A stretch of DNA of 43,667 bases from Caldifarciminota bacterium (lineage in GTDB: Bacteria; Hydrothermota; Tepidihabitantia; SM23-42), in contig CP070686.1 of NCBI GenBank assembly GCA_020353055.1, forward strand, positions 219,762-263,428. The letters run 5' to 3'. Below, one piece after another: positions 6,616 through 40,624 of the stretch. Position 1 is the stretch's first letter, and every line of letters begins with the position of its first letter. The notes beneath the pieces are model-generated. The model was not told the DNA's origin, did not search any database, and was given only the letters and a program-made list of their open reading frames with translations. Made by a program: the position numbers and the translations under genes.

Positions 6616-7863
6616 CTAGTTGGTCTTTCTGAATATCATGGCGACCACGGTCTTATCATTACCACCCATGCTTGAAAGCATGCCATATGGTCGATCCGGC
6701 GTTACCTGCACCTGGTAATCACCTGCTTTAGCCGAAAGTTGATGTACTATGTCAACTGCCTGGCGGACACCGGTCGCACCGGTTGGGTGCCCATATCCAA
6801 TCAGTCCACCAGATGTATTCGTAGGTATTAAACCGTTGAGAGCTGTATTACCTTCCTTAACAAAATCGGCACCTTCTCCGTAGCCAGCCAGACCTGCCGC
6901 TTCGACCGCGAGCAGACCGGCAACGGTGAAGCAGTCATGCACCTCCAGGACACCCAACTCTCGTGGTTGGATACCCGCTCTCTCATACGCACGCCTGGCC
7001 GCAGTTTCACACGTGCTCAGCTTGGTCATATCCGGCGGTGGTGTAGTCAAATTGTCCTGAACCTGTGCGTAGGCAATCACCTCGACCGCGTCCTTCTTGC
7101 TAACGCCGATCTTCTCCAACCCTTGTTCAGAAGCAAATATCAATCCCGCAGCACCATCGGACACTTTCGAGCAATCAAACACATTTATATGTTCACAAAA
7201 AGCCTTGGGGCTGGGTGCTGTCATACCCGTGCTATGGAGATCGCTATTCGAGTTGTGATATTCCTGCGCCTTGGGATTCTTACGGGCGTTCTCGATTGCA
7301 TTGACGTACCACTGTGCCATCCCAGGACGGATTTTATCATAACCGAACTTTTCAAAACACGCACCGGCACGCCGCGAAAACTGATCGGGAAAGAAATACG
7401 CGTGTCCATCCTTGCGCTCACCAGAATACCATCCTGCAGCGGCAAGATAATCAGCGCCGTAGACTGCTTTGACAGTGTTCTGAACCTCAACACCTAAGCA
7501 CACTACAACATCGGCAAGATCCGCGAGCACCGTCTTGACCGAAGCAACGAGTGCCAGGCCGCCTGAATCGCACGCGCCCTCAACACGCATGCATGGTTTG
7601 TACTGAAAGGTAGGGTGCACCATAGGAAAAAATCCACCGAGGTTACCTTGATGACAGAATCTGGATGCTATGAAGTTACCGATCACACCCTCATCAACAT
7701 GCTCGGGATTCTTTATTTGACCGATTACTCCAAGACCCGCCTCTTTGATATAGTGTTCGATACCGGGACGTGGTTTCTTAGGGTGAAATTCCTTTCTGCC
7801 CGTACCGAGTGATACTGTGTAGAATCCAGCACAAGCATAAACTTTCTTCCTAAAAAAAGACAT
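6616..7863 (-). CDS. Thiolase family protein (SCP2/archaeal-type acetyl-CoA acetyltransferase)
   Basis: Probably cleaves a 3-ketoacyl-CoA with CoA, ending the beta-oxidation route begun by the neighbouring hydratase and dehydrogenase. In its 415 residues the nucleophile cysteine is in VEGACDSGGLA (about residue 98), with active-site histidines in LEVHDCFTVAG and IGYGHPTGATG. The second cysteine of classical thiolases (CxGxG) is replaced by SSMGGNDK, as is usual for SCP-x/archaeal-type thiolases. AAGGAG stands about seven bases before the ATG. Chain-length preference cannot be read from sequence. It is clearly diverged from the second thiolase at 17520-18671, which belongs to the HMG-CoA synthase complex. 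Confidence 0.88.
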   Translation of the reverse strand: MSFFRKKVYACAGFYTVSLGTGRKEFHPKKPRPGIEHYIKEAGLGVIGQIKNPEHVDEGVIGNFIASRFCHQGNLGGFFPMVHPTFQYKPCMRVEGACDSGGLALVASVKTVLADLADVVVCLGVEVQNTVKAVYGADYLAAAGWYSGERKDGHAYFFPDQFSRRAGACFEKFGYDKIRPGMAQWYVNAIENARKNPKAQEYHNSNSDLHSTGMTAPSPKAFCEHINVFDCSKVSDGAAGLIFASEQGLEKIGVSKKDAVEVIAYAQVQDNLTTPPPDMTKLSTCETAARRAYERAGIQPRELGVLEVHDCFTVAGLLAVEAAGLAGYGEGADFVKEGNTALNGLIPTNTSGGLIGYGHPTGATGVRQAVDIVHQLSAKAGDYQVQVTPDRPYGMLSSMGGNDKTVVAMIFRKTN

Positions 7864-7883
7864 TCAACACTCCTTTCTGAAAA

Positions 7884-8015
7884 AAATCCTAAATCCGAAT
7901 ATCGAAATCCTGCATAAATACAAAATCCGAATTTTCGAATACCAATGGTGTTTTAGTATTTTGTATTCTGGTCATTTGATATTGCCTAGAGTTTCGGATT
8001 TCGTGCTTAGAATTT
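7884..8015. repeat. MITE-like intergenic repeat, family A, copy 1
   Basis: This non-coding element has imperfect inverted ends: the left arm carries AAATCCGAATATCGAAATCC and the right arm carries TTTCGGATTTCGTGCTTAGA, whose complement resembles the left arm. The middle is AT-rich. It fills the gap between the dehydrogenase and thiolase genes. A related element lies at 16841-17016 and a single-arm remnant at 32225-32258. Confidence 0.6.
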
Positions 8016-8020
8016 CATCG

Positions 8021-9358
8021 TTATATGTATTCATTTATCGGTCCGTAGAGCCAGAAGAAACCGTTCGTGAGAACAGCATTGACATCTTCGCTTGAATTAG
8101 CAACACCCCGGCTCACCAGACCTTCGGCTATTTCCTTCGTCTTCCTCAAGAAACTGCAAGCCATTTCGGCTCCTAGCGTATCCATTTTTTTCAACTGTTC
8201 AAAATGCAGCCTCAGTTTCTCATCCTTTTTGCTATCCATTAGCAGACCACGCCACGGGATATATCCTTCAGGCAGTACTCCTAATTTCTTGTCTATCCTT
8301 TTCCTCCATTCTTCGGAGATAGGGAAATAATCTTTCTTTCTGATATCATATATACCCACGGGACGATTCTTCTCGTACTTCAGAAAACCATCCTTTTGTG
8401 ACCCATCCGCATACTGACCACCAAGCACTTCATGCTTAACCATTCTGTCAACCAATCTGCTTCTCAGCTTATCATCAGGAAGATGGGTTCGCATAACCTT
8501 CAAAATACATTGAAATACATCGATACCAACATAGTCGATGAGTTGAAAGATACCCATCGGCCTTGCCAGGAAGTCCTGCGTTATACGATTCATCACGTAT
8601 ACCGCGCCTGTGTAGCGGAACGTTGATTTGATCCGGTCGACTTCGGCTATTGCGTGCAATCCGTCACGTATGAAATGTCCATTGCCGATGAAACCTGATA
8701 TATCATTAGCCGGTACGAGTTTCTTGCGTAATCTCTTGCCGAGTTCACCTGCTGCAACTTTCAATTCCTCTGTCGTGTTATTCGCCGTAATAACTTCGAC
8801 CAGTCTCTGTACTACAGGAGGATTATAGAAATGGTAGCCAATGAGCCGCCCACCGAGCCCGGCATTTTCATCCAGATAACCGATCGGAATGCTGGACGTA
8901 TTCGTCAGGTAAAACGTATCAGTACTGCACATTCTATTCAGTTTCTTATAAATCTTTATCTTCGCTTTTTCATTTTCGAAGATTGCTTCGAATATGAGAT
9001 GGCTGTTTGCGGCCATTCCCAGATCGACACCATAGTTCAAAACACTTGTGGACTCGTCAACGAAGGCATTTATGATATCGCTGTTCTCTACCAGGTCCTT
9101 TCTGTCTTTATACAAACCCCTCAGTAACACTGTCGACTTTTCTGCTGCCTTTACGAGTTGCGCCTTCATATATGACCGGAGACCGTCAAGTGCCTGCTCA
9201 CTGACATCAATCAAGTTGAGCCTGTACACGTTCTTCATATTTTCGGGTTTCAATTTCAACTTTGCCATTTCCTGCGCAATGAGCACCCCAATACCACTGC
9301 CCATCTTACCCGCAGCACCAATTATTGTTACATTCTGAAGTCTCGCATCAAGGTCCAT
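8021..9358 (-). CDS. 3-hydroxyacyl-CoA dehydrogenase, stand-alone
   Basis: NAD-dependent oxidation of 3-hydroxyacyl-CoA to 3-ketoacyl-CoA. The N-terminal Rossmann fold shows VTIIGAAGKMGSGIGVLIAQ (family GxGxMGxGIA), then a typical LTNTSSIPIGYLDE region and the IGYHFYNPPVVQRLVEVI motif of the family (family GMHFFNPVxxMxLVEV). A C-terminal helical dimerisation domain follows. I start at the ATG ending at 9358 because GGAGG lies five bases upstream; a longer frame reaching 9379 would contain that site. About 445 residues is longer than FadB2-type enzymes (about 285) but lacks a fused hydratase, so the chain carries a long extra C-terminal half of the kind seen in some anaerobes. Substrate unknown. 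Confidence 0.85.
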   Translation of the reverse strand: MDLDARLQNVTIIGAAGKMGSGIGVLIAQEMAKLKLKPENMKNVYRLNLIDVSEQALDGLRSYMKAQLVKAAEKSTVLLRGLYKDRKDLVENSDIINAFVDESTSVLNYGVDLGMAANSHLIFEAIFENEKAKIKIYKKLNRMCSTDTFYLTNTSSIPIGYLDENAGLGGRLIGYHFYNPPVVQRLVEVITANNTTEELKVAAGELGKRLRKKLVPANDISGFIGNGHFIRDGLHAIAEVDRIKSTFRYTGAVYVMNRITQDFLARPMGIFQLIDYVGIDVFQCILKVMRTHLPDDKLRSRLVDRMVKHEVLGGQYADGSQKDGFLKYEKNRPVGIYDIRKKDYFPISEEWRKRIDKKLGVLPEGYIPWRGLLMDSKKDEKLRLHFEQLKKMDTLGAEMACSFLRKTKEIAEGLVSRGVANSSEDVNAVLTNGFFWLYGPINEYI

Positions 9359-25374: not shown

Positions 25375-26925
25375 CTAAAAAATAGCCTTTTCCTTAAACT
25401 CACCATAGATATTTCGCAAGACTTCCGAGATTTCACCGACCGTTGCGTAGTTCCTGACGCAATTGATGATCGGCTCCATCAGATTTTCACCGGAAATCGC
25501 CCTCTGGCGTAACGTATCGAGCCTACGATTAACTTCTGCATTGTCCCTTCGCTTCCTGATCCCTCCTGTCCTCATCCTTTGTTTACTGACCGATCTAGGT
25601 GAAACTTTCAGAGTTGCATATTTCTTGATTGATTTGTTATCAGAGAATTTGTTAACACCAATGACACTAACCTCACCGCGTTCCATGGTTTTCTGATAAT
25701 CATACGCACTCTTGTGTATCTCTTTCTGAAAGTAACCACTATCAATTGCACTCACCGACCCGCCCATTCGGTCTATCTCCTCAAGATAACGATTCACACG
25801 ATTCTCCAACTCATTAGTCAAACATTCCAAGTAGTAAGAACCCCCTAACGGATCAACAACCTTTGCTACGTTGCTCTCGTAGGCAATTATCTGTTGGGTG
25901 CGCAATGCGAGCCGTACTGCTTCCTCGGTTGGCAGTGAGAGAGCCTCGTCATAACTATTGGTATGAAGACTCTGCGTGCCGCCGAGTACGGCAGCCAATG
26001 CCTGAAGCGTCACCCTGATCGCATTGTTCAGGGGCTCTTGAGCAGTGAGTGAAGACCCGGCGGTCTGGGTATGGAATCTAAGCATCCATGACCTCGGATT
26101 CTTGGCTCCGAATCTGTCTTTCATGATCTTCGCCCAGATCCGGCGTGCGGCTCGAAATTTCGCCACCTCTTCGAAAAAATCGAAGTGTGCGTTGAAGAAA
26201 AAAGACAGGCGAGGTGCAAATTCATCGATATCCAGCATTCCGTCATCGATAACCGATTTAACGTATGAGATGCCGTTCGCCAGGGTAAAGGCAACCTCCT
26301 GCGCGGCAGTTGAACCGGCTTCCCTAATATGGTAACCGGAAACGGAGATAGTGTTCCATCTCGGTAAATTCTTACTACAATATGATATAATATCGACCGT
26401 CATTTTCATCGACGGGATTGGTGGAAATATGTATGTGCCCCGTGCAATATATTCCTTGAGTATGTCATTCTGCACGGTTCCCTTTAACACAAACGGACTC
26501 ACGCCCTTTTTCTCGGCAACCACAATGTACATAGCAAGCAGAATCGCAGCCGTGGCGTTAATCGTCATTGAAGTACTGACCTTATCCAACGGTATGCCGT
26601 CAAACAAAATCTCCATATCCACAAGACTGTCAATTGAGACCCCTGTCTTGCCGACCTCACCCTCGGACAGCGGGTTGTCAGAATCGTAGCCCATCTGCGT
26701 TGGTAGGTCAAAAGCGACAGAGAGACCGGTCTGTCCATTCGCCAGCAGATATTTGTAGCGCTTGTTCGACTCCTCTGCCGTACCGTAGCCTGCATACTGG
26801 CGCATCGTCCAAAGCCTACCGGTGTACATCGTTGGATAGATACCGCGGGTGAAGGGAAATTCACCGGGCTTACCCAGATCTGTCTCGTGTTTGAAGTTGC
26901 GCAAATCTTCGGGAGTAAATAACAT
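25375..26925 (-). CDS. Methylmalonyl-CoA mutase large (catalytic) subunit
   Basis: Adenosylcobalamin-dependent rearrangement of (R)-methylmalonyl-CoA to succinyl-CoA. The 516 residues cover the TIM-barrel substrate domain only; the B12 domain is a separate protein. The two positions that set substrate choice read as methylmalonyl-CoA type: Tyr44 in TMRQYAGYG and Arg162 in [13 protein letters not shown], 118 residues apart like Tyr89/Arg207 of the Propionibacterium enzyme. The paralogue at 32256-33887 has Phe and Gln there. [19 protein letters not shown] and [16 protein letters not shown] are classic mutase motifs. It follows the propionyl-CoA carboxylase genes. No small subunit lies next to it, so it probably borrows the one at 31723-32208 or one elsewhere. 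Confidence 0.93.
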
Positions 26926-26973
26926 AATTACTCAATAACCCATATTCATAAAAAAAGTGAATTTCACACGGCG

Positions 26974-27465
26974 CTATTCAATAATCAGCAAAGTATCGCC
27001 GGTATTCACGGTCTGTCCTTTCTTGATAAATATCTTTCGCAGTAAACCGTCCCGCGCCGCCTTGATCTCATTCTGCATTTTCATCGCTTCGATTATTAGT
27101 AGTCCATCACCACTCTTAACCACGTCACCCTCTCGTACATTGACGTCTATTACCAATCCCGGCATCACTGCCTTAACGGCCAACTCCTTCTTTTGCGCCA
27201 AATCGGGACTCGCCTTGATCAATTTCTCAATTAGTTCGTCAACAACTTCAACAGCATATGCCTCGCCGTTCACAAGTACCTGACTGTCTGACTCGACGAT
27301 AGTCGCGAAAGGCTTATCGTTCACTATGAGCATCAATTCGGCCCCTTGCTCATGAGCGATTTCGACATTCGCCTTTTTGCCGTTCAGAGATACAACGAAC
27401 CTACCATCCTTCATCTGAACATCCACCTTGAATTCTCTGCCTTCAACATTGACTATGTATGCCAC
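26974..27465 (-). CDS. Biotin carboxyl carrier protein of propionyl-CoA carboxylase
   Basis: Biotin-bearing shuttle for the propionyl-CoA carboxylase genes just upstream. The 163-residue protein has an N-terminal beta-rich linker domain (about residues 1-90) and a C-terminal biotinyl domain with the acceptor lysine in IIEAMKMQNEIKAARDG (about residue 129). Its start is one base from the biotin carboxylase stop codon, so translation is coupled. Same architecture as the carrier at 11634-12137 but clearly diverged from it. Confidence 0.92.
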   Translation of the reverse strand: MAYIVNVEGREFKVDVQMKDGRFVVSLNGKKANVEIAHEQGAELMLIVNDKPFATIVESDSQVLVNGEAYAVEVVDELIEKLIKASPDLAQKKELAVKAVMPGLVIDVNVREGDVVKSGDGLLIIEAMKMQNEIKAARDGLLRKIFIKKGQTVNTGDTLLIIE

Positions 27466-27466
27466 A

Positions 27467-28966
27467 TTAACCCCTACGCATCATTTCTTTACGGCCGGAA
27501 AGTTTCCAGGGATTGGTTTTCCTACCCTCCCTGGCCTTCGGTAGTCGCACATGCTTCTCGCTCAAAATCCTCGCTATAACCGAAGATATCGCTGCGACAT
27601 CATGATGCTGTTTTTTGTATTCTATCTTCTTTAAAACCTTATCGATGAAAGTAGTATCATAATCACCCTCAATGAACTTCGGGTGATCCATGACCAAACG
27701 ATGAAAAGGTATCGATGTCTTGATTCCTCTGATCATGTATTCACCAAGTGCTCTCGTCATGCGCACGAGTGCCTCCTTCCTTGTCGGCGCCCATACAAGC
27801 AATTTCGCAACGAGCGGGTCATAGTATATGGGGACGTCGAACCCCTCGTATATCCCACTATCGACTCTCACGCCGATTCCACCAGGTTCGATCAGTTCCG
27901 TGATCTTCCCGGTGGAAGGAGCAAAGTTATTTTCGGGATCCTCGGCAGATATGCGGCATTCGACCGCAGCACCAGTCATACTAATGTTATCCTGTGTAAG
28001 GCTCAAGACCTCACCGGCGGCTATTTTGAACTGCTCCTTGACTATGTCGATACCGGTGATCAACTCGGTAACCGGATGCTCAACCTGAAGTCGCGTGTTC
28101 ATCTCAAGGAAATAGAAATTTCTATCCTTATCAACCATGAACTCAACCGTCCCTGCATTATTGTATTTCGAGACCTTCACGGCTTTCACTGCAGCCTCAC
28201 CCATCCTGGCGCGGAGTTCTGGTGTCATTATTGCTGAAGGAGATTCCTCGATCAATTTCTGATGACGTCTCTGCACCGAGCATTCGCGCTCAAACAGATG
28301 AATCGCGTTACCATGATTATCGGCGAGGATTTGAAACTCAATATGGCGAGGAGATTCCAAAAATTTCTCAATGAATATCGTTGGATTGCCAAACGCCGAA
28401 TTTGCTTCACCCATTGCCTGCTTCATCGCACTACCGAGATCTTGCTGTTCACGCACGACACGCATACCTTTTCCACCACCACCACCGGCAGCCTTAATCA
28501 GCACAGGAAATCCAATATCTTCAACGATTTTACGACCCTCCTCTTCTTCGGCTACCGGACCTTCACTCCCCGGGATAACCGGGATTTTTGCCTTTCTCAT
28601 CGTTTTCTTCGACGCAATCTTGTCACCGAGCAACTCAATGGCCCGCGAATTAGGGCCTATGAACACTATACCGTTATCCTCACATGCCCGAGCAAAATCA
28701 GAATTCTCGGCCAAGAATCCATAACCTGGATGGATCGCCTCGGCGCCCGACTCTTTGGCGACCGCCATTATCTTGTCGATTCTGAGGTAACTCTCGCTCG
28801 CCGGCGCTCCACCGAGACCATAGACTTCGTCCGCGTAACGTGTGTGAAGCGCATTACGGTCTGCGTCAGAGTAGACGGCAACGGACTGAACGCCCATCTC
28901 ACGACAGGCTCTAAGCACGCGCACTGCAATCTCACCTCGATTGGCAACTAGAATCTTATTGAACAT
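27467..28966 (-). CDS. pccA: Biotin carboxylase subunit of propionyl-CoA carboxylase
   Basis: ATP-dependent carboxylation of biotin. The 499 residues show MFNKILVANRGEIAVRVLRA, the ATP-grasp loop KAAGGGGGKGMRVV, HIEFQILADNHGN, ERECSVQRRHQKLIEE and the active-site region FLEMNTRLQVEHPVTELITG. The chain ends at NPWKLSGRKEMMRRG, where fused PCC alpha subunits continue into their carrier part; here that part is the next gene. GAGGAA precedes the ATG. Sits 169 bases after pccB, with a family B repeat between them. Confidence 0.93.
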   Translation of the reverse strand: MFNKILVANRGEIAVRVLRACREMGVQSVAVYSDADRNALHTRYADEVYGLGGAPASESYLRIDKIMAVAKESGAEAIHPGYGFLAENSDFARACEDNGIVFIGPNSRAIELLGDKIASKKTMRKAKIPVIPGSEGPVAEEEEGRKIVEDIGFPVLIKAAGGGGGKGMRVVREQQDLGSAMKQAMGEANSAFGNPTIFIEKFLESPRHIEFQILADNHGNAIHLFERECSVQRRHQKLIEESPSAIMTPELRARMGEAAVKAVKVSKYNNAGTVEFMVDKDRNFYFLEMNTRLQVEHPVTELITGIDIVKEQFKIAAGEVLSLTQDNISMTGAAVECRISAEDPENNFAPSTGKITELIEPGGIGVRVDSGIYEGFDVPIYYDPLVAKLLVWAPTRKEALVRMTRALGEYMIRGIKTSIPFHRLVMDHPKFIEGDYDTTFIDKVLKKIEYKKQHHDVAAISSVIARILSEKHVRLPKAREGRKTNPWKLSGRKEMMRRG

Positions 28967-28985
28967 AATTCCTCAAAGGGTTGAG

Positions 28986-29031
28986 ACAATCGGTGGTCGG
29001 TAACGAAGCCCGCTTCGTCCGACGGTAACGT
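28986..29031. repeat. Short intergenic repeat, family B, copy 2
   Basis: Sequence related to 9431-9484. It includes a seven-base hairpin, ACGAAGC-CC-GCTTCGT (29003-29018), between pccB and pccA. No T run follows on the minus strand, so a terminator is unlikely. Confidence 0.45.
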
Positions 29032-29135
29032 ACTTTAAGCCTCATCGACTGTCTCGGTCATTCGGATTTTGATGTGCAGGTCTGTTCCGTATTCTTGTTC
29101 GGTCATTGTACCCGTCGGATGTCAAAGGTTTTCTT

Positions 29136-30683
29136 TTATAGTGGTATATTTCCATGTTTCTTGGGAGGATTGGAATCGCGTTTATTCTCAATCATTTCCA
29201 GGGATTCGATAATACGGGGTCGCGTTTCCGAAGGTCTGATCACGGCATCTATATACCCCTTACTGGCCGTAACAAAGGGATTGGCGAATTTCTTAGTATA
29301 CTCGTCGATTAGTTTTTTCTCGAGAGTCTTCGGGTCTTTCGCTTCTTTCAATTGCTTCCTGTAGAGGATTTTCACTGCACCGTCTGGACCCATAACCGCA
29401 ATCTCGGCACTTGGCCACGCAAAATTCACATCGGCACGCGTGTGCTTGGAACTCATGACGCAATACGCACCACCGTAGGCCTTGCGTGTAATAACGGTAA
29501 CACGAGGAACCGTGGCTTCACAGAAAGCGTACAGAAGTTTTGCCCCGTTCTTTATCACACCACCCCATTCCTGTGCCGTGCCTGGTAAGAAACCAGGGAC
29601 ATCGACAAAAGTGACGATTGGAATGTTGAAACAGTCACAAAAACGCACAAAACGAGCCCCCTTCATGCCTGAATTTCTGCCCAGTACCCCAGCCAGAACC
29701 GCTGGCTGATTTGCCACTATGCCAACTGCCTTACCATTCAAACGCGCGAAACCAACGATCAAATTCGGCGCATAGTGCTTATGCACCTCAAGAAAATCTC
29801 CGTTATCAACGATCTTCTTGATCACCTCAAGCATATCATAGGGTTTATTGGCACTCTCAGGGATGATGGCATCAAGAGTCTTATCCATGCGATTCGGATC
29901 ATCGGTTGGCTCGACCGAAGGTGGATCTTCGAGGTTGTTCTGCGGGATGAAGGAAAACAGCCTTTTTATCAGTTCAATGCATTCTAATTCCGAATCAACG
30001 GCAAAATGAGCAACGCCTGATTTCTCATTATGGACCATTGCACCACCGAGCTCGTCATAGGTAACATCCTCATGGGTAGCAGCCTTCACCACATCGGGGC
30101 CAGTCAAAAACATATACGAACCGGCAACCATGATGATGAAATCGGTCATCGCCGGAGAGTAAACCGCACCACCAGCACAAGGCCCCATCACCGCGGATAT
30201 CTGTGGTATGACCCCAGAAGACAGCACATTCCGCAGAAATACATAAGTGTAACCGGCAAGGCTATCAACTCCCTCCTGAATACGCGCACCACCCGAATCT
30301 TTGAGGCCGATAATAGGACATCCCATTTTCATTGATAAATCCTGCAATTTCACTATCTTATCAGCATAGGCTAAGGACAGCGAACCGCCGAATACCGTGA
30401 AATCTTCCGCAAAAACGCACACCGTGCGACCGTTTATTCGACCGTAGCCTGTCACTACCCCGTCGCCCAATATTCTATTCTTCTCGAGTCCGAAGTCGGC
30501 ACATCTATGGGTTACAAACTTGTCAGTTTCCCTGAAAGTGCCCTTATCGAGCAATAGATTTATACGTTCCCGAGCGGTCAGCTTTCCTTTATCGTGTTGT
30601 GCCTTTATTCTTTCTTCACCACCGCCGAGCAACGCCTCCTTCTCCAGCTTTTCGAGATTTTTCAGTTTGTCGTCGGCTTTCAT
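29136..30683 (-). CDS. pccB: Propionyl-CoA carboxylase carboxyltransferase (beta) subunit
   Basis: Transfers carboxyl from biotin to propionyl-CoA, making (S)-methylmalonyl-CoA. The 515-residue protein has [20 protein letters not shown], the oxyanion-hole segments [16 protein letters not shown] and [35 protein letters not shown], and in the second half [20 protein letters not shown] and [20 protein letters not shown]. These are PCC/MmdA-type. A sodium-pumping methylmalonyl-CoA decarboxylase alpha subunit would look similar, but the biotin carboxylase gene that follows and the absence of a membrane subunit favour PCC. Transcribed with the biotin carboxylase, carrier and mutase downstream. Confidence 0.93.
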
Positions 30684-30785
30684 CTATCCTCCAAGCTCAT
30701 GAATTTGGATAACCTGGACATAATCAAAAGATAATATGCTGTCGAAAATCTCAACAGCATCCTTCGCTAAACTGCGATCTTATTC

Positions 30786-31703
30786 TCATCGTGACTGACG
30801 CCTCTTAGACCGCGGCTTGCCGACCCTTGAGACCTTCATACTCCGACGTTTGCTGCCAACACCCTTCTGACCTTTGATCGGCACCAACTTCACCGCGCCT
30901 TCAGTTCCCTCGAGGCGCGCGAAAATGACATTCGGATCGTGTTCAAAAATGAGCACATGTTTCGCGTTAACCGCAGATTCGACGATCGCTTTCTTCCGTA
31001 AGACCAAGTCGACGGGATACAGATCGAAACCAGTGAGATAATGCGGCCTCAAATGATAAGATGTTGGAATCACGTCACCGAGATAGAGTGCCGCGTTTTT
31101 ACCACTGCTTATCAACACCGATTGATGACCGAGGGTGTGGCCATTGGTTAGTAAAACCCTTATCCCGGGAATAATGTCGTCGTCACCATCAACAAATTGT
31201 ATCTGCCCAGCCTCCTCAAGCGGCATGAAATCACTTGCCCGGTAGCTCGACTTAGTTTTCTCATCGGTATTATGCGCGCTGAACCATTCTTGCCTTTGTA
31301 TGACGTATTTTGCATTGGGAAACGTGGGCACATACTTGCCGCCACTGTTCGTTGTATTACCTCCACAATGGTCAAAATGGAGATGTGTATTTATCACATA
31401 ATCAATGTCCTCAGGGTTCACCTCATGCTGCGCCAAAGATGAAAGGAGATCAGTGCTGCGTTCCAGCTTGTATATTTCCTTTGACCTTCTGCTGAATTTC
31501 TCACCGATACCAGTATCTATGAGTAATGACTTTTCTTTGGACCTTACTAACAGACAATTCAGGGCAAGCCGGATCCGGTTGTGCTTATCGGCTGGCGATA
31601 CCTTGTTCCAGAGTACCTTAGGCACAACTCCAAACATCGAACCACCGTCAAGCCAGAAATGTCCATCCGAGATCGCGCATAGTTCAAACTCACCAAGTTT
31701 CAT
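30786..31703 (-). CDS. Metallo-beta-lactamase-fold hydrolase with basic C-terminal tail
   Basis: Metal-dependent hydrolase of unknown substrate. The zinc site motif HLHFDHCGG (about residues 106-114) and later histidine/aspartate ligands in NGHTLGHQSVL, YLGDVIPTS and IFEHDPNV are all present, so it should be active. Members of this MBL subgroup include lactonases and thioesterases. The last 23 or so residues (from about 283) are rich in Lys and Arg (GSKRRSMKVSRVGKPRSKRR). The protein encoded by the preceding gene, the B12-binding mutase subunit, has an even more basic tail. It sits 19 bases after that gene and before pccB, so a role in acyl-CoA handling, for example as a thioesterase, is a reasonable guess only. 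Confidence 0.8.
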   Translation of the reverse strand: MKLGEFELCAISDGHFWLDGGSMFGVVPKVLWNKVSPADKHNRIRLALNCLLVRSKEKSLLIDTGIGEKFSRRSKEIYKLERSTDLLSSLAQHEVNPEDIDYVINTHLHFDHCGGNTTNSGGKYVPTFPNAKYVIQRQEWFSAHNTDEKTKSSYRASDFMPLEEAGQIQFVDGDDDIIPGIRVLLTNGHTLGHQSVLISSGKNAALYLGDVIPTSYHLRPHYLTGFDLYPVDLVLRKKAIVESAVNAKHVLIFEHDPNVIFARLEGTEGAVKLVPIKGQKGVGSKRRSMKVSRVGKPRSKRRQSR

Positions 31704-31722
31704 AGTCGTATGTTCAAAGATG

Positions 31723-32208
31723 CTAACCCTTGCTTTTCTTTTTGATTTTCTTCCGGACCTGCTTTTTGACTTTCTTGCGGACAGACTTCTTCTTGCGTGT
31801 CGTCGGTCGCTTTGGCTTCACCGCATTATCCTTTATCCAATCCACAATCTCAGAAGTCGGTGTTCCGGGACCAAAGAGCTTGTGCACACCTATTCTCTGG
31901 AGTTTTTTCATATCATCGGCAGGGATAATACCGCCACCAATCACCATTATGTCTTTGGCTTTACTAGCTCTGAGCAACTTCAATATTCTGGGGAATATCG
32001 TCATGTGCGCGCCAGAAAGAATCGAAAGACCGATGACGTGCACGTCTTCCTGCACTGCTGCCTCGACAATACTCTCGCATGTCTGATGCAACCCGGTGTA
32101 TATCACTTCCATACCCGCATCACGCAAAGCAGCAGCCACGACCTTGGCTCCTCGATCATGCCCATCAAGACCTGGTTTTCCAACTAACACCCGAATCTTG
32201 CTAATCAT
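31723..32208 (-). CDS. B12-binding small subunit of acyl-CoA mutase, with lysine-rich tail
   Basis: Binds adenosylcobalamin base-off/His-on for the mutase large subunit. The Rossmann-like domain (residues 1-130) has all three family motifs: the cobalt-ligand histidine in [11 protein letters not shown] (DxHxxG), [10 protein letters not shown] (SxL) and [11 protein letters not shown] (GG). Family members of this type are about 130-140 residues; this one adds a tail at residues 131-161 in which 19 of 31 residues are Lys or Arg, with a histone H1-like pattern (KKxxxKK). Such a tail is not part of the known mutase fold. It follows the isobutyryl-CoA-mutase-like gene by 47 bases and is the only small subunit in the window, so both large subunits may use it. 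Confidence 0.93.
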
Positions 32209-32224
32209 AAAAACCTCCCCAAAA

Positions 32225-32258
32225 CAACAATATCGAAATTCGAATTGCGAAATTTCTA
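32225..32258. repeat. Family A repeat, single-arm remnant
   Basis: AATATCGAAATTCGAATTGC and following bases resemble one arm of the family A elements at 7884-8015 and 16841-17016. It lies directly after, and touches, the stop codon of the mutase large subunit. Confidence 0.4.
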
Positions 32259-33887
32259 GAATATGATCGGTTCATGGTATACACCGAATTCTTCCTTCAA
32301 AGTATTACACATCTCACCAAGTGTCGCGTATTCCCGCACGCAATCCAGTATCCGGGGCATCAAATTTTCGCCGTCACTCGCTGCCTTTCGCAACATGAGC
32401 AGTTTTTCCCTTACTCGCTTGCCGTTCCTATCTCTCTTGAGCTTCTTTAGTTGGCTTCTCTGGACCTTCTCAACTTGCGGCGATATTTTCAAAATCTCTA
32501 TTTCCGCTTTTTCATCTTCCTCAAAAATGTTCACACCGACATGATATTTCGTCTTCTGTTCCAGCGCCTTCTGGTATGAATATGCACTCCTTGATATTTC
32601 CTTTTGAAAGAAACCCTTATCTATGGCGCGCACCACGCCGCCTAGTTTGTCAATCTTCTCGAAGTACTTGTACGCGCCCTGCTCCAGCTCATTCGTTAAA
32701 GACTCTATATAATATGAACCTCCCAAAGGATCAATGGTGTGGGCAACACCGGATTCATAGGCTAATAGCTGCTGGGTACGCAGGGCGATCTTTGCTGCCT
32801 TCTCTGTTGGCAAGGCATAGGTTTCATCCATGGAATTCGTGTGCAGAGACTGGGTGCCGCCCAACACCGCCGACAGTGCTTGGTAGGCTGTCCTAATTAT
32901 GTTATTCTCTGGTTGCTGTGCGGTCAAAGTGCATCCGGCAGTCTGGGTATGAAAACGCATCAAGTAGGACCTTGGATCCTGAGCCCTGTATTTTTCACGC
33001 ATCATACGCGCCCAGATCCTGCGCGCCGCACGGTATTTGGCTATTTCCTCGAAGAAATCAAGATGCGAGTTGAAGAAGAATGAAAGTCTGGGTGCAAATT
33101 TGTCGACGGACAGACCTGCCTTGATGCCGTGTTCAACATAGGTAAAGCCGTTCTTGAGTGTGAATGCCAGTTCCTGCAACGCTGTTGAACCCGCTTCTCT
33201 TATGTGATACCCGGAAATCGATATTGTGTTCCATTTGGGGACGTGTTCAGAGCAGTACTCCAGAATATCCGAGATAATCCTCATTGAGGGTTCCGGCGGG
33301 TAGATCCAAGTTTTCTGAGCCTGATATTCTTTTAACATGTCATTCTGGATCGTGCCGGTAAGAATTTGCGCCGGAATGTTTTGTTTCTCTCCAACAACAA
33401 TATACATTGCCAACAACATTGCCGCCGGAGGATTGATCGTCATGGAAGTAGAAATCCTGTCGAGCGGAATACCGTCGAAGAGAACTTCCATGTCTCGCAG
33501 GCTATCTATTGCCACACCACACTTACCGACCTCCCCATGTGCAAACGAATCGTCAGAATCACGTCCGTATAGTGTTGGAAAATCAAACGCAACCGACAGC
33601 CCGGTCTGGCCGTGTCCCAACAGATATTTGTAGCGCCGGTTAGTGTCCTTTGGCGTACCGAATCCCGAAAATTGCCTCATTGTCCAGAGGCGTCCACGAT
33701 ACATATTGGTGTATACACCTCGCACGTAGGGAAATTCGCCAGGGTATCCCAGATCCCTATCGTGTTCCATATCGGCAATATCATCTGGTGTATACAATAC
33801 CTTGATCGGGACACCGGAAACAGTGCTGAAGTCCGTATTCCTCTCTTTACATGTTTTCGACTTCTCATACCACTCTTCTTTTTTCAT
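32256..33887 (-). CDS. Isobutyryl-CoA mutase-like large subunit
   Basis: B12-dependent mutase catalytic chain, 543 residues, with a short N-terminal extension relative to the paralogue at 25375-26925. At the two specificity positions it has Phe73 (TMRQFSGFG) and Gln191 ([11 protein letters not shown]), 118 residues apart. This is the Phe80/Gln198 pair of Streptomyces isobutyryl-CoA mutase and not the Tyr/Arg pair of methylmalonyl-CoA mutase; Gln in place of Arg removes the contact to the free carboxylate. [12 protein letters not shown] further matches the ICM side. Predicted reaction: isobutyryl-CoA to n-butyryl-CoA, or a close unactivated acyl-CoA. It begins in an ATGA overlap with meaB, behind AGGAGG, and the B12 subunit follows. 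Confidence 0.85.
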
Positions 33888-34861
33888 ACAAACCTCCTAT
33901 CGGCCAACCTGATGATTCTCCGGGCAATCTGTCCTGCAATACGATAGGGATTGAGTTTACGTTCGTACATCTTGTCGAGTAGTTTGATGATATCCCTTTC
34001 AGGCATGATGTTTTCTTTCAAATGAAATCTTATTCTCTTTTCGATAAGCTCATGAATGCGCAGTAACAATTTCTTCTTCCTTTCATCCTCCAGTCTACCC
34101 GTTTTCGACAAATATGATGCATGTGATTCTATTGCCACAACGAGTTCTTCGACACCCTCGTCCTCGGTCGCCGTTGTCTTCAAAATAGGGTAATCCCACC
34201 CAACCTTCTGTTCACGCATCTCAAATGCGAACTTCAATTCGGTAAGCAGTCGTTCACACCCTTCACGGTCACCTTTATTCACAACCATGATATCGGCGAT
34301 TTCCAATAGACCGGCTTTCATCGCCTGGATACTGTCACCTGACTCCGGAACCAAGACGACGACAGTAGTATCACATACCTGCGCAATATCTAATTCAACT
34401 TGTCCGACACCGATTGTTTCGATCAGGATGTAATCCATACCCGCAGCATCAAGCACGAGAGCCACGTCTTTGGTCGCTTGTGCAAGACCCCCCAAACTTC
34501 CCCGAGATGCCATGCTTCGGATGAAAACATTCTCATCCAGCGCGAGATCCGTCATCCGCACGCGATCACCAAGCAAAGCCCCGCCAGAGAAGGGTGAACT
34601 GGGATCGACCGCAATGATACCCACTTTCTTTCTTTTACCGAGCAGCCGTTTCGCGATCGCGCTCACCAGTGTGGATTTTCCGGCACCGGGTGGACCCGTA
34701 ATGCCGACATGGTATGCACTACCACTATGGGGGAATATATGTTCAAGAATTTCCTCGGAATCTTCGCTCTCAACGGCGCTAATGATACGGGCGATCGTCC
34801 TCTTTTCACCCGCCAGTAGAGCCCTTATCCCTTTGACCGTCTCCCGTTGTCTACCCTTCAT
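33884..34861 (-). CDS. meaB: MeaB-type G-protein chaperone of acyl-CoA mutase
   Basis: GTPase that gates delivery of adenosylcobalamin to the mutase and protects or reactivates it. The 325-residue protein has Walker [16 protein letters not shown] (about residues 55-69), switch and base motifs [33 protein letters not shown], and NKGD for guanine recognition, plus a C-terminal helical dimerisation arm. It is separate from the mutase, unlike fused IcmF, but translationally coupled to the ICM-like large subunit by a four-base overlap. This tight pairing suggests that the ICM-like enzyme is its main client. Confidence 0.95.
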
Positions 34862-36121: not shown

Positions 36122-37954
36122 CTATTGACCAGCAATTTTGATCAGCAACACATCGAGGGAGGCAGTAGCGCTGCCATCAGTATGTCCAAGTAATACAAGG
36201 TTACCGTCAGGATGAATATTTACAGCATTCGCCCATTCGCTACCGTCCTTTCCGATTTCTTTCTGCCACGCAATATTGCCATCAGCATCGAGGTTCACCA
36301 AATAAATATCATTATCGTATGTATTATTGTGCGCCTCCGATGGCCTGACCATCGACTTGGTTATACCGACAACTACATAACCAGCCCCGGGTACTTCACA
36401 TATCGCGTTACCATAATCATAGAAGGGTTCATTACCAAACGACGCCAGCCACTCTTCATTACCTGAAGCATCGGTTTTGACAACGACCACGTCCATCATG
36501 TCATTGCAGTCAGAATAGCCGGCGAGTATCCAGCCGCTGTCGCCTGCTGGTGATGAGCCTTTGCACCAGTCAAAACCGTGACCATGCTCACCGGTTGCAT
36601 TGTAGGATTGCGACCACTCTCGTTCGCCCGCGCCGCTTATTTTTGCCAAATAGAAATCGGTATTGACACTCTGGCTACCGCTGCTTGCGGCTATCACGCA
36701 GCCGCCGTCCTCTGTGGCGTGAACGGAATTAGCCATGTCCATACGCCAGCCACTGAAGGTTCTGGACCAAATAGTATCACCCTCTGCGCTGATCTTGAGC
36801 AAATATATGTCTTCTTCACCAAAGCCAAATGAGTGTGTGAAGCCGCATACAAAATAATAACCCTCAACTGCTTTGCATATTGCAGTACCGACATCCCAGC
36901 TCTTCCCGCCGAATGTTTTCGACCAGATTTCATTTCCTTCACTGTCAATCTTAAGCAGATAGATGTCCTTGGAACCCGCACCGAAGGAAGTTGTGTAGCC
37001 GAGTATCAAATAACCATCCCCGGTCTCGACACAAGCATTACCATATTCGGTACCCGCACCGCCGAAACGCCTAGCCCAAACCATATTGCCATCTGCGTCA
37101 GTCTTAACAACCAGCACGTCCGCGTCTGTGGCACCAGGGGCAAAGGTGTAACCGACGAGAAGAAAACCGCCGTCCCGTGTCGTGCAGAAAGCACGGCCAC
37201 CATCAGACCCTCTGCCTCCGTAGGTTTTCGCCCACAGTACGTCACCCTGCCCAAAATCGATATTCTCTGTAGAGACATACGCGGCGCTCAATGACCCTTT
37301 GTGACCCCGATCCTGATTGTCTTCGATAATGGTAGCTACAGCCATCACATTTGCATAGTTGTAGTATTGCCCGCGTGCACAAGTAATGATGTTCCTGTCA
37401 ATTGTCGGAGGATTATCATTTCGCGGCCGTCCTATATAATGAGCGCCCGCTTCGATATACTCTTCCCGGAATCTCGGTGACCCGACAATAAACCTACCAT
37501 GGAGGACATCGGCCGCAGCCAGCGTCCGAACTCCCGCACACGTAGCGAAAACGGCCAGTCCATAGTACACAGCCCGCCGTATTAGACGCAGCGCATGGGG
37601 ACTGTCAATTACGTCACCAAGCGCATTTTCAATTGGGGCCGCGTTGCCGGTTGATGGAGCAATTATCAAACAGTCATAATATCCAATCTCCTCTATGTCT
37701 TCGATCTTCACATCGGGAATAAGTGAAAAAACCTGTCCGTGATTCGCAAACCAAGGACAAGGTGTTACGCTATCCAGGACACCGGTGTGCGTAACGTTCC
37801 ATCCGTACTCTTCAATCACGTCGCGCAGTAGATAGTAATTCGCGCCCAGGTTTCGCGGCGCCAAAATCAACGCATTGACGCCCTGCTCCCTCTTTGGCGT
37901 ACATGAAACGAACAACATAACAACTACAGATATGGTCAGAATGCTTCTGAACAT
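36122..37954 (-). CDS. Lipoprotein: DJ-1/PfpI-like domain fused to a seven-repeat beta-propeller
   Basis: The 610-residue protein starts with a lipoprotein signal (hydrophobic stretch, then lipobox LFVSC with Cys18). Residues about 25-215 look like a DJ-1/PfpI domain: YDCLIIAPSTGNAAP, a nucleophile-elbow cysteine in FATCAGVRTLAAADVLHGR, and GAHYIGRP further on. From about residue 240 to the end there are seven repeats of about 50 residues, each starting W(A/S)xxFGG and containing DxGxA, DGGxxLxGY and D(I/V)YLLKxDxxGN, as expected of a seven-bladed propeller. The protein should be anchored in the envelope facing the periplasm or exterior. No close functional analogue known to me; a binding or proteolytic role is possible. 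Typical of surface proteins in FCB/WOR-3-like genomes. Confidence 0.78.
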   Translation of the reverse strand: MFRSILTISVVVMLFVSCTPKREQGVNALILAPRNLGANYYLLRDVIEEYGWNVTHTGVLDSVTPCPWFANHGQVFSLIPDVKIEDIEEIGYYDCLIIAPSTGNAAPIENALGDVIDSPHALRLIRRAVYYGLAVFATCAGVRTLAAADVLHGRFIVGSPRFREEYIEAGAHYIGRPRNDNPPTIDRNIITCARGQYYNYANVMAVATIIEDNQDRGHKGSLSAAYVSTENIDFGQGDVLWAKTYGGRGSDGGRAFCTTRDGGFLLVGYTFAPGATDADVLVVKTDADGNMVWARRFGGAGTEYGNACVETGDGYLILGYTTSFGAGSKDIYLLKIDSEGNEIWSKTFGGKSWDVGTAICKAVEGYYFVCGFTHSFGFGEEDIYLLKISAEGDTIWSRTFSGWRMDMANSVHATEDGGCVIAASSGSQSVNTDFYLAKISGAGEREWSQSYNATGEHGHGFDWCKGSSPAGDSGWILAGYSDCNDMMDVVVVKTDASGNEEWLASFGNEPFYDYGNAICEVPGAGYVVVGITKSMVRPSEAHNNTYDNDIYLVNLDADGNIAWQKEIGKDGSEWANAVNIHPDGNLVLLGHTDGSATASLDVLLIKIAGQ

Positions 37955-37986: not shown

Positions 37987-38475
37987 CTATTCAATTTCCT
38001 CGAATTCCCCGGTTTTTTTGTTCTTGCGTACTTTGTCCCATTGGAAAAATCGGCCGTTCATTACTACGTATATCCCACGCGGCAAGGTCTGAACAAATGC
38101 CAAGGCACTACCCAGATTGAATAGGCCGTCAGAACTGCCGAACGTATATGGCACCATAGCACCGGTCAGCACTATGGTCTTGTCGGTGACCCGTTCAGCG
38201 ATAATCTGCGCAGTTTGAACCATCGTATCGGTACCGTGTGTGATTACGATCCTTTCCTCGCTTGCTTTTGCACAGTTGCGTGCTATGGTCTCCCGGTCTT
38301 CATCGCTGATTTCTCGGCTATCAACCATCATCAGCGTTCTCACGTCAACTGCAACGCGGCACCTGCCGAGCATCAGCGTACGCGTGACATGAGTCTCCTT
38401 GAAATAGAGTTCCCCGGTCAACTCGTTGTATTCTTTATCGAAAGTGCCGCCGGTAACGAAAATCCTTATGTTCAT
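37987..38475 (-). CDS. Short asparaginase-like protein
   Basis: The 162-residue protein matches the N-terminal catalytic domain of type I/II asparaginases: first catalytic threonine in FVTGGTFDKEYNE (about residue 11), second in VITHGTDTMVQTAQ (about residue 81) and lysine-region motif VLTGAMVPYTFGSSD. The C-terminal domain of full asparaginases (about 320 residues) is absent; an independent family of this short length exists in many bacteria, so it is probably intact rather than truncated. Starts eight bases after the selenoprotein stop and likely shares its message. Confidence 0.78.
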   Translation of the reverse strand: MNIRIFVTGGTFDKEYNELTGELYFKETHVTRTLMLGRCRVAVDVRTLMMVDSREISDEDRETIARNCAKASEERIVITHGTDTMVQTAQIIAERVTDKTIVLTGAMVPYTFGSSDGLFNLGSALAFVQTLPRGIYVVMNGRFFQWDKVRKNKKTGEFEEIE

Positions 38476-38483
38476 ATTCTATC

Positions 38484-39005
38484 TCAATCGTTGCTGAGGG
38501 CTTCCCTCATACGACCCCGCACACCTCCAGCACTAACCGCCATCACAACCGAGAGGATCGCCCCAATCTCTTCTTCGGTAATACCCTTCTGCCTGGCTAC
38601 GCCAAGTAGATTTCGTATTCAGGTCGGACAGCCATTTGCCAAAGCCGCGGCGATCTGTACAAAAAGTGTAATCCGAGAGTCCAAAAAATCGTTTTGTTCC
38701 GTCGATTTATAGAAATCAGAAAATGCTTTCTTCTGATTCTCGGGTATCGTATCCCCGATCTTACTACGGTTGGAAATACCACATGCAGATATTGCCATGA
38801 CGACAGACAGCACGGTACCTATCTGCTCTTCTGTGATACCTTTCTCCCTGGCCACGCCAAGGTAATAGTCTACTCAATTTCCGCAACCAAAAGAAATCGC
38901 CGTCGCCAAATGAAGCATAAGTGTGGTATCCTGCCCGAGTATTTTGTTGAATCGGGCAGATGCGTAGAAGGCTGCATATGCCTTACCTTGCTTATCTGGT
39001 AACAC
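38484..39005 (-). CDS. Tandem AhpD/carboxymuconolactone-decarboxylase-like selenoprotein with two Sec (CxxU) sites
   Basis: One 173-residue protein interrupted twice by in-frame TGA. It starts at GTG (39005), five bases after GGGGAGG, and ends at TGA 38486-38484. Codon 44 (38876-38874) and codon 129 (38621-38619) are TGA, reading FGCGNUVDYY and NGCPTUIRNL. Both stand exactly where the AhpD/CMD family has its redox CxxC. The protein is two copies of an 85-residue unit: compare YLGVAREKGITEEQIGTVLS with LLGVARQKGITEEEIGAILS. Each TGA is followed at 18 bases by a hairpin with the loop starting in G. Other genes here end normally at TGA, so recoding is local. Expected role: peroxidase or disulfide-reductase. 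The family's histidine four residues after the second Cys is Tyr/Leu here. AhpD-like single-Sec proteins are known; a two-Sec tandem is not one I know. Confidence 0.88.
38592..38606 (-). promoter_or_regulatory. Bacterial SECIS-like hairpin after the second UGA
   Basis: CTTGGC, loop GTA, GCCAGG on the minus strand, six pairs with one G-U, with the loop again 18 bases after the UGA (38621-38619). Same geometry as the first hairpin. Because the two gene halves are duplicates the match is partly inherited, but it has been kept while flanking codons changed. Confidence 0.58.
38846..38862 (-). promoter_or_regulatory. Bacterial SECIS-like hairpin after the first UGA
   Basis: CCTTGGC, loop GTG, GCCAGGG on the minus strand, a seven-pair stem with one G-U. 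The loop begins 18 bases after the UGA at 38876-38874 and starts with G. This fits the loose bacterial SECIS pattern (short stem in the coding region, a G early in the loop, roughly 16-37 bases from UGA), as I recall it. Confidence 0.6.
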
Positions 39006-39047
39006 TTTCACCTCCCCTGAAAAATCGCATCCAGAAAGCACTCACGA

Positions 39048-40526
39048 TCACATCTCGGTTATTCGTTCAAGAATATCTTGCGCAGCGTCTGCTCTATAAC
39101 CTGCAGGGGCGAGTTCAAGATATTTTTGAAGGTAATCTCTGGCCAACTCAACTTGATTTATGCCGTGATAAATCTCACCCAGCATATAATACGGATTCGT
39201 GAAATTAGCATCTACAGCAATAGCTTTCTCGTAGAAGCGAATCGCCTGTGTAGTATCGCCCCTGAAAAGTTGCGCCTCTGCCATACTGTCATAAGAGTTT
39301 GGGTCGTTCGGTGCCAACTTTATCAATTTCCCGAACGTATCGCTTGCGTCATCATACTCCCTGACGCCCATATGGGAATAACCTAGAATGTTATACACAA
39401 CGATATTGTCACCTTCAATCGCCACTGCTCTCTTGCATACTTCTATTGCGGGATAGTATGCCTGGGTTTCGTAATACGTCGAAGCCATGCTCCTGTAAGC
39501 TTCGAGATCATCAGGATTCGCAGCAATGGCATCCTTTGCATCGATGATGACCTGTAGACGGCCAAAGAGTTGATCTACGTCGATGCCACCAAACCCATAC
39601 GGAGAGTCGCTGCTAATCGCACGCAGGCGATCAAGAAAAGCAGCAGCATCACCGGTCTTGCGAAACTCTATCAATTCAATCTGGAACCTGGCGGCGTAAT
39701 CCATACCCTCGGTATGCTCGGCCTCGACCACCTGGTCAAAACCGGCGGAAGCATCATCGAATCTGCCTGACCGGCTCAGCTCCACGCTGCGTTCGAAAGT
39801 AGAAAACGCCGTCCAGTCGTAACCAAGTTGTACGGTCAACAGATCCCCATGTTCGGTTCGAACGCGCCGAGCATAATCAGACAGTGGGTAGCGATCAACG
39901 ACCATTGCATAATGCTTTGCTGCTTTCAGATTCTCTTTCATCTCCAGATGAATACCGGCCAGCTCGAAATGGTCAGCAGGCGCTGATCGTCCAGCCGGGT
40001 TCTGTTCCAGTGACTTCTCATAAATACTGATTAGTGCAAGTCGATCACCCAATGTACGATAACACGCTATCACTTTTGTTTTGAAAATATCATTCCATTC
40101 AGGTGCCAGTTCAGAATGAACGGGTGTCGCAAGTTTCTCCAGTGCAGACTCGTAACTCCGCGCTGCATCTCCCCACCTGTCCTGCTCTTCATAACAAGAA
40201 CCGAGGCGGTCTAATGAGAATATCTCCCAGCCAGTCCCCGGATGTTTGCTTATTATATTTTGATAAACAAGCGCCGCTCTATGGTAGTCCTTCTTAACCA
40301 CAAAAAGTACGTTAGCGATCGCCCACTTGGCCGCTGGCACGAGATGGTGCTCGGGGTTTTCCTGTACGAAAAATTCGTAAGCCTTCAAAGCGTCATCGTA
40401 CTGTTGATTTTGTAGAAGTTCGTTAGCACGCTCAAACACATCGAGGCTATCTACCTGAGCAATGCCGAAAGACAACAACGCAAGAAGGCATCCCAAAGTC
40501 ATTCTCAAAACTCTATTGCCCAACAA
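39048..40526 (-). CDS. Secreted or periplasmic TPR-repeat protein
   Basis: Scaffold-type protein with a signal peptide and tetratricopeptide repeats. From the chosen start the N-terminus is a short basic region (GNRVLR) then MTLGCLLALLSFGIAQVDSL, a signal sequence. Repeats begin around FERANELLQNQQYDDALKAY and continue to the C-terminus with YFEKAIAVDANFTNPYYMLG-like units; about ten can be picked out. I favour a TTG start at 40526 (or 40523), six to nine bases after GGAGG; frames extending to 40577 would place that site inside the gene. An ATG at 40502 is also possible. The stop is 42 bases before the selenoprotein start. Ligand unknown. Confidence 0.82.
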   Translation of the reverse strand: MLGNRVLRMTLGCLLALLSFGIAQVDSLDVFERANELLQNQQYDDALKAYEFFVQENPEHHLVPAAKWAIANVLFVVKKDYHRAALVYQNIISKHPGTGWEIFSLDRLGSCYEEQDRWGDAARSYESALEKLATPVHSELAPEWNDIFKTKVIACYRTLGDRLALISIYEKSLEQNPAGRSAPADHFELAGIHLEMKENLKAAKHYAMVVDRYPLSDYARRVRTEHGDLLTVQLGYDWTAFSTFERSVELSRSGRFDDASAGFDQVVEAEHTEGMDYAARFQIELIEFRKTGDAAAFLDRLRAISSDSPYGFGGIDVDQLFGRLQVIIDAKDAIAANPDDLEAYRSMASTYYETQAYYPAIEVCKRAVAIEGDNIVVYNILGYSHMGVREYDDASDTFGKLIKLAPNDPNSYDSMAEAQLFRGDTTQAIRFYEKAIAVDANFTNPYYMLGEIYHGINQVELARDYLQKYLELAPAGYRADAAQDILERITEM

Positions 40527-40624
40527 TAACAACCTCCGTACAAATAACGCCCATGCATGAATATCTGTTCCTGCCACACGTCATGCTCGATCACTCCTTT
40601 TTCTACCCGATACACAATGAATGT

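Follow-up and report, generated by a model that had tools for sequence, protein, structure and literature searches.

We report that a gene of an uncultured bacterium of WOR-3 (Caldifarciminota), as read from its sequence, very probably encodes a genuine tandem CMD protein of 173 residues with two selenocysteines (Sec), in which both internal UGA codons would be recoded and which would act as a thiol/selenol oxidoreductase or peroxidase. We show by computation the recoding at both sites, its conservation and the single origin of the fusion. The gene lies on the minus strand of the window, by which we mean the whole stretch of 43,667 nucleotides analysed, and the source genome is a complete one-contig chromosome of 2.69 Mb.

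The reading frame

The frame of this AhpD-like gene occupies 38484..39005 and is read in the direction 39005→38484; the original prediction had the coordinates right and gave no strand, which is supplied here as minus. It opens with a GTG at 39005-39003, preceded by GGGGAGGTGA, and closes with a TGA at 38486-38484. Reading of the minus-strand frame bore out the claim that it contains exactly two internal TGA codons, with no other stop: codon 44 (38874..38876, minus strand) and codon 129 (38619..38621, minus strand), each of which is kept in the congeneric genomes G003, G004 and G006. U44 and U129 both occupy the place of the second Cys of a CxxC, giving CGNU and CPTU, just as had been proposed. 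The ribosome-binding site, originally described as strong, is GGAGGTGA at 39008..39015 (minus strand), with an identical site in G004 and GGAGG variants in G003 and G006.

The frame is also a repeat. Its N and C halves agree at 38 of 77 residues in an 85-residue register, which upholds the earlier description of two copies of one unit, and both match Pfam CMD (PF02627; 32.6 and 29.5 bits for the two domains, cut-off 23), the C half being the stronger match. The N-terminal domain, with CGNU, extends over 38766..39005 and the C-terminal domain, with CPTU, over 38496..38744 (both minus strand), so that one TGA falls inside each. Standard gene callers would split such a gene into fragments.

Selenocysteine machinery of the genome

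All four of selA, selB, selC and selD, the genes by which the original prediction was to be checked, are present in the same genome. Profile matches reached 551 bits for SelA, 346 bits for SelB and 317 bits for SelD, and the tRNA-Sec (selC) scored 75 bits, with the anticodon TCA (UCA). selA adjoins selB, the tRNA-Sec gene is near and selD lies ~10 kb off. SelD, which has its own in-frame UGA in a CAGU motif (G000:C1:461771-462676, G000 being the source genome), is a second selenoprotein and serves as a positive control for Sec decoding. Across the phylum, selA exceeds the curated cut-off in 59 of 147 genomes, including 8/8 of the genus.

Family, fold and active site

The protein belongs to the GSU3128/ArsM-AhpD/MduS-like branch of CMD rather than to AhpD itself. 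Against AhpD proper (TIGR00777) it scored 26.9 bits, where the whole-protein threshold is 191.95, and against the GSU3128 family (NF041047) 56.3 bits in two stretches, where 110 is called for and members are single-domain proteins of ~84 aa. That family of 'distant AhpD homologue' selenoproteins (COG0599-like; Geobacter) shares the CxxU CMD domain, and both halves of our protein match it, but it has a single domain and a single Sec. The best-scoring CMD models, the arsenite methyltransferase/AhpD-domain selenoprotein (NF041537) and MduS (NF045649), likewise combine a CxxU CMD domain with more than one Sec; their other domain, however, is a methyltransferase, the fusion to which is required for membership, whereas our protein is CMD only, twice, matches only profile positions 236-336 and stays far under the cut-offs of 510 and 380 bits. 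The Sargasso/GOS metagenomes yielded CxxU selenoproteins, CMD-like and AhpD-like, that are of the CMD family too, but with one Sec per protein, and the tandem two-Sec form was not found in the cited papers. Both CxxU motifs align with the CxxC of a Photobacterium homologue and of Pfam CMD, as expected of a bacterial selenoprotein.

An AlphaFold2 model, of moderate confidence (pLDDT 76.5) and built from three sequences, folds into eight main helices in two repeats, and the best PDB matches found by Foldseek were to M. tuberculosis AhpD (TM about 0.71-0.76; best E 1.3e-3). This enzyme (1gu9, 1knc) resembles our protein in its two-domain all-helical CMD fold and similar length, but it uses Cys only, in one CxxC active site located in the C-terminal part and served by a Glu/His relay, whereas our protein has CxxU in both domains and lacks the relay. 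The catalytic relay of AhpD comprises Glu118, Cys130, His132, Cys133 and His137 (PMC3141380). Cys and Sec sit at AhpD's two Cys positions, while the counterparts of Glu118, His132 and His137 are, by spacing, Leu29, Asn43 and Tyr48 in the N half and Leu114, Thr128 and Leu133 in the C half. Of the two-Sec tandem peroxidase or thiol oxidoreductase originally proposed, the two-Sec tandem part stands, on the machinery, the conserved UGAs and the hairpins, while AhpD-type peroxidase chemistry can only be inferred because the relay residues are absent. Each Cys/Sec pair may alternate between thiol-selenolate and selenylsulfide: the Sec in second position would attack the substrate, a peroxide or a disulfide, and be resolved by the Cys; the low pKa of Sec could stand in for AhpD's Glu/His proton relay. 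With the relay missing, one can ask by experiment whether Sec lessens the dependence on Glu/His.

A two-Sec protein could also handle metalloids (arsenic or organometals) instead of reducing peroxide. In NCBIfam, the closest models are indeed NF041537 and NF045649, selenoproteins in which CMD is joined to an arsenite methyltransferase or a methyltransferase, along with TIGR04169, a peroxidase-like family associated with arsenosugars, and the source genome contains an ArsM-like open frame. We nevertheless consider such a role unlikely, as the annotated neighbours, namely TPR, half-asparaginase, DJ-1/propeller and methylmalonyl-CoA genes, include no arsenic gene.

SECIS hairpins

Each internal UGA is followed by a SECIS hairpin. 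Hairpin 1 (38846..38862, minus strand; 7 bp, loop GUG) starts 11 nt after UGA44, and hairpin 2 (38591..38607, minus strand; 6 bp, loop GUA) has the same spacing after UGA129. This geometry recurs in 11/11 UGA contexts, drawn from four tandem genes (two each) and three single-domain copies: the hairpin always starts 11 nt past the UGA and measures 17 nt with 6-7 bp, and its loop is a three-base GUN, with the sole exception of the N half in G004, which has a 5-nt AGUUG loop. With 11/11 UGAs the hairpins conform to the published bSECIS rules (loop of 3-9 nt, upper stem of 4-16 bp, G within positions 1 and 2 of the loop, a distance of 16-37 nt to the UGA, MFE at most -7.5; PMC13188914); since 10.5% of the 1,817 TGA triplets in the window pass these loose rules as well (0.7% in a same-place version), these rules alone are weak evidence.

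Stronger evidence came from a codon-shuffle null, in which the summed local folding energy of -101.8 compares with -34.6±7.2 (minimum -66.9) in 2,000 protein-preserving shuffles. The conservation of the hairpins exceeds what the protein sequence needs. In the stems the codons GGC and GCC hardly vary (GGA occurs once), and the loop codon GTN takes all four third bases; by alignment counts 94.8% of cells are paired and two pairs show compensatory change on both sides, in sequences that share kinship and are not independent trials, so that joint statistics overstate independence. Rfam returned no match to the hairpins, the locus or the whole window.

We propose that SelB, tRNA-Sec(UCA) and the hairpin behind each UGA would decode codons 44 and 129 as Sec, and that the third UGA, which has no conserved hairpin, would terminate. 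The predicted product joins two all-helical CMD domains covalently and has a CxxU site in each of them.

Orthologues and probable origin of the fusion

Tandem orthologues occur in three congeners, at 70% (G004), 59% (G003) and 59% (G006) identity, and all keep both UGAs. The original prediction had argued that random nonsense mutations would not strike the same redox position twice; since three independent assemblies have the two codons at the same positions at 59-70% identity, neither chance nor sequencing error explains them. G001 has a single-domain gene with one UGA (CGAU), and G084 has two adjoining single-domain genes (CTSU and CSSU). The G084 pair (G084:C1:1059979-1060657) consists of recent duplicates with a single Sec each, of which the upstream copy is probably decaying, given its extra early TAG. 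Five of the six loci are bounded on one side by a shared TPR gene and on the other by a shared DJ-1/propeller-MeaB-methylmalonyl-CoA mutase block; at the G003 locus the DJ-1 side is kept, and the stretch searched yielded no match to TPR.

A domain tree groups the N halves in one clade (100/98) and the C halves in a second (98/99), which is best explained by a single fusion event that predated the split of the four tandem genomes. The presence of a one-domain gene, an adjacent pair and a fused gene at the same chromosomal position suggests a route from a single Sec gene through tandem gene duplication to fusion.

Examination of homologues for U or C at the two positions found Sec in the four tandem genes and three single-domain copies, and Cys in the Photobacterium relative. 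The latter, a distant (37%) single-domain CLPC protein, was the one relative recovered by tblastn against plasmids; we rejected it as a tandem Cys homologue, as its one domain had been aligned twice, to both halves. A search that was limited outside the phylum turned up no Cys/Cys orthologue of tandem form. The viral contigs searched contained no relatives, and a peptide-pattern search of genome contigs, with narrow patterns of which one spanned the Cys/Sec position, returned only two already-known congeners. Eleven weak matches in the phylum were likewise rejected as orthologues, being ordinary Cys-type CMD proteins (9/11 sequences were read, all single-domain CxxC).

The stretches downstream of each UGA are under purifying selection (pN/pS 0.25-0.45, in comparisons where synonymous-site distances are near saturation), and constraint on the C half, reachable only via both UGAs, matches that on the N half. 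This bears on whether only one UGA is read efficiently, with a single-Sec fragment or early-terminated peptides as main products and the tandem form a minor one. Sec insertion in bacteria is generally inefficient, and two insertions in a short gene multiply the loss. Against this, the C half is no less constrained and is the better CMD match, and we hold a predominance of shortened products to be quite improbable.

A pseudogene, that is, a former CxxC tandem protein killed by two nonsense mutations, would fit the two in-frame stops, and decay does occur in the family, in the G084 copy with the extra TAG; yet this reading is refuted by the identical placement of both UGAs across four genomes that have diverged, together with the purifying selection downstream of each (pN/pS about 0.3), and hairpins kept beyond protein need and an intact ribosome-binding site also oppose it. 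A lineage-specific code change, with UGA read as Trp or Gly, would accommodate two UGAs in a conserved frame but deserves next to no credence, as the redox Cys of CxxC is the one position where UGA stands here, the Sec machinery is complete, SelD has its UGA at its known Sec site, selA itself terminates with UGA, the neighbours read normally under table 11, and no gene among those examined was seen to read through UGA at a non-Cys position.

Neighbouring genes

The two-Sec gene is flanked upstream by a TPR-repeat protein (39048..40577, minus strand), the upstream anchor of the conserved locus. Downstream, a half-length asparaginase-like gene (37987..38475, minus strand; 162 aa, covering the N-terminal part of PF00710 only) begins 8 nt past the selenoprotein stop and is probably cotranscribed with the selenoprotein gene; its start lies 3-8 nt past that stop in the source genome, G004 and G006. 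Among these three genomes it is 91-94% identical, and neighbouring genes there are far less conserved. In G003 only its 3' end seems left, an apparent deletion read from the sequence, and the selenoprotein is accordingly independent of it.

Next comes a DJ-1/PfpI protein with SBBP/PQQ-type beta-propeller repeats (36122..37954, minus strand), with an ATCAG motif and a lipoprotein-signal-like N-terminus, and further on a methylmalonyl-CoA/propionyl-CoA cluster (25375-33887, minus strand) with two genes resembling a mutase large subunit, genes for a B12-binding subunit, a carboxyltransferase and a biotin carboxylase and, at 33884-34861, MeaB. Full-length DJ-1/propeller orthologues are confined to 6/23 family genomes, those with the CMD selenoprotein, where the two genes are adjacent or nearly so; the other 17 have neither, with partial DJ-1/propeller matches, and the genomes being related, this co-occurrence is suggestive and not independent evidence. 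G005 retains a C-terminal remnant of the DJ-1 gene directly before MeaB, with no CMD match within 1.5 kb before the remnant, which suggests joint loss of the two genes. It is conceivable, if doubtful, that the two-Sec protein and the downstream DJ-1/propeller lipoprotein form an undescribed selenium-dependent redox module, in which downstream expression may need passage of both UGAs and the operon would act as a selenium sensor. In G001 and G084 a DUF362 protein (7135-8055 of locus stretch L051 and 9030-9950 of L047) directly precedes the Sec CMD gene with its single domain; the tandem loci gave no match to this protein.

Meaning of the two-Sec architecture

CxxU selenoproteins with a single Sec, AhpD-like or CMD-like, have been on record since 2005, in agreement with the original statement that single-domain forms were known. 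A review of 2026 covers 119 families of prokaryotic selenoproteins, a small subset of them with 2-3 Sec, including fusions between methyltransferases and AhpD domains; its table of these families has no tandem CMD protein with one Sec per half. The suggestion of a possibly new selenoprotein architecture agrees with this absence, although one catalogue and the cited papers are not proof, and others may have seen the form.

This gene brings to the CMD/AhpD selenoproteins an architecture of two Sec and two active sites. With a one-domain Sec gene, adjacent duplicates and a fused gene found at one position in relatives, its origin has likely been captured: gene duplication carried the SECIS along, so that the second recoding site arose with it.
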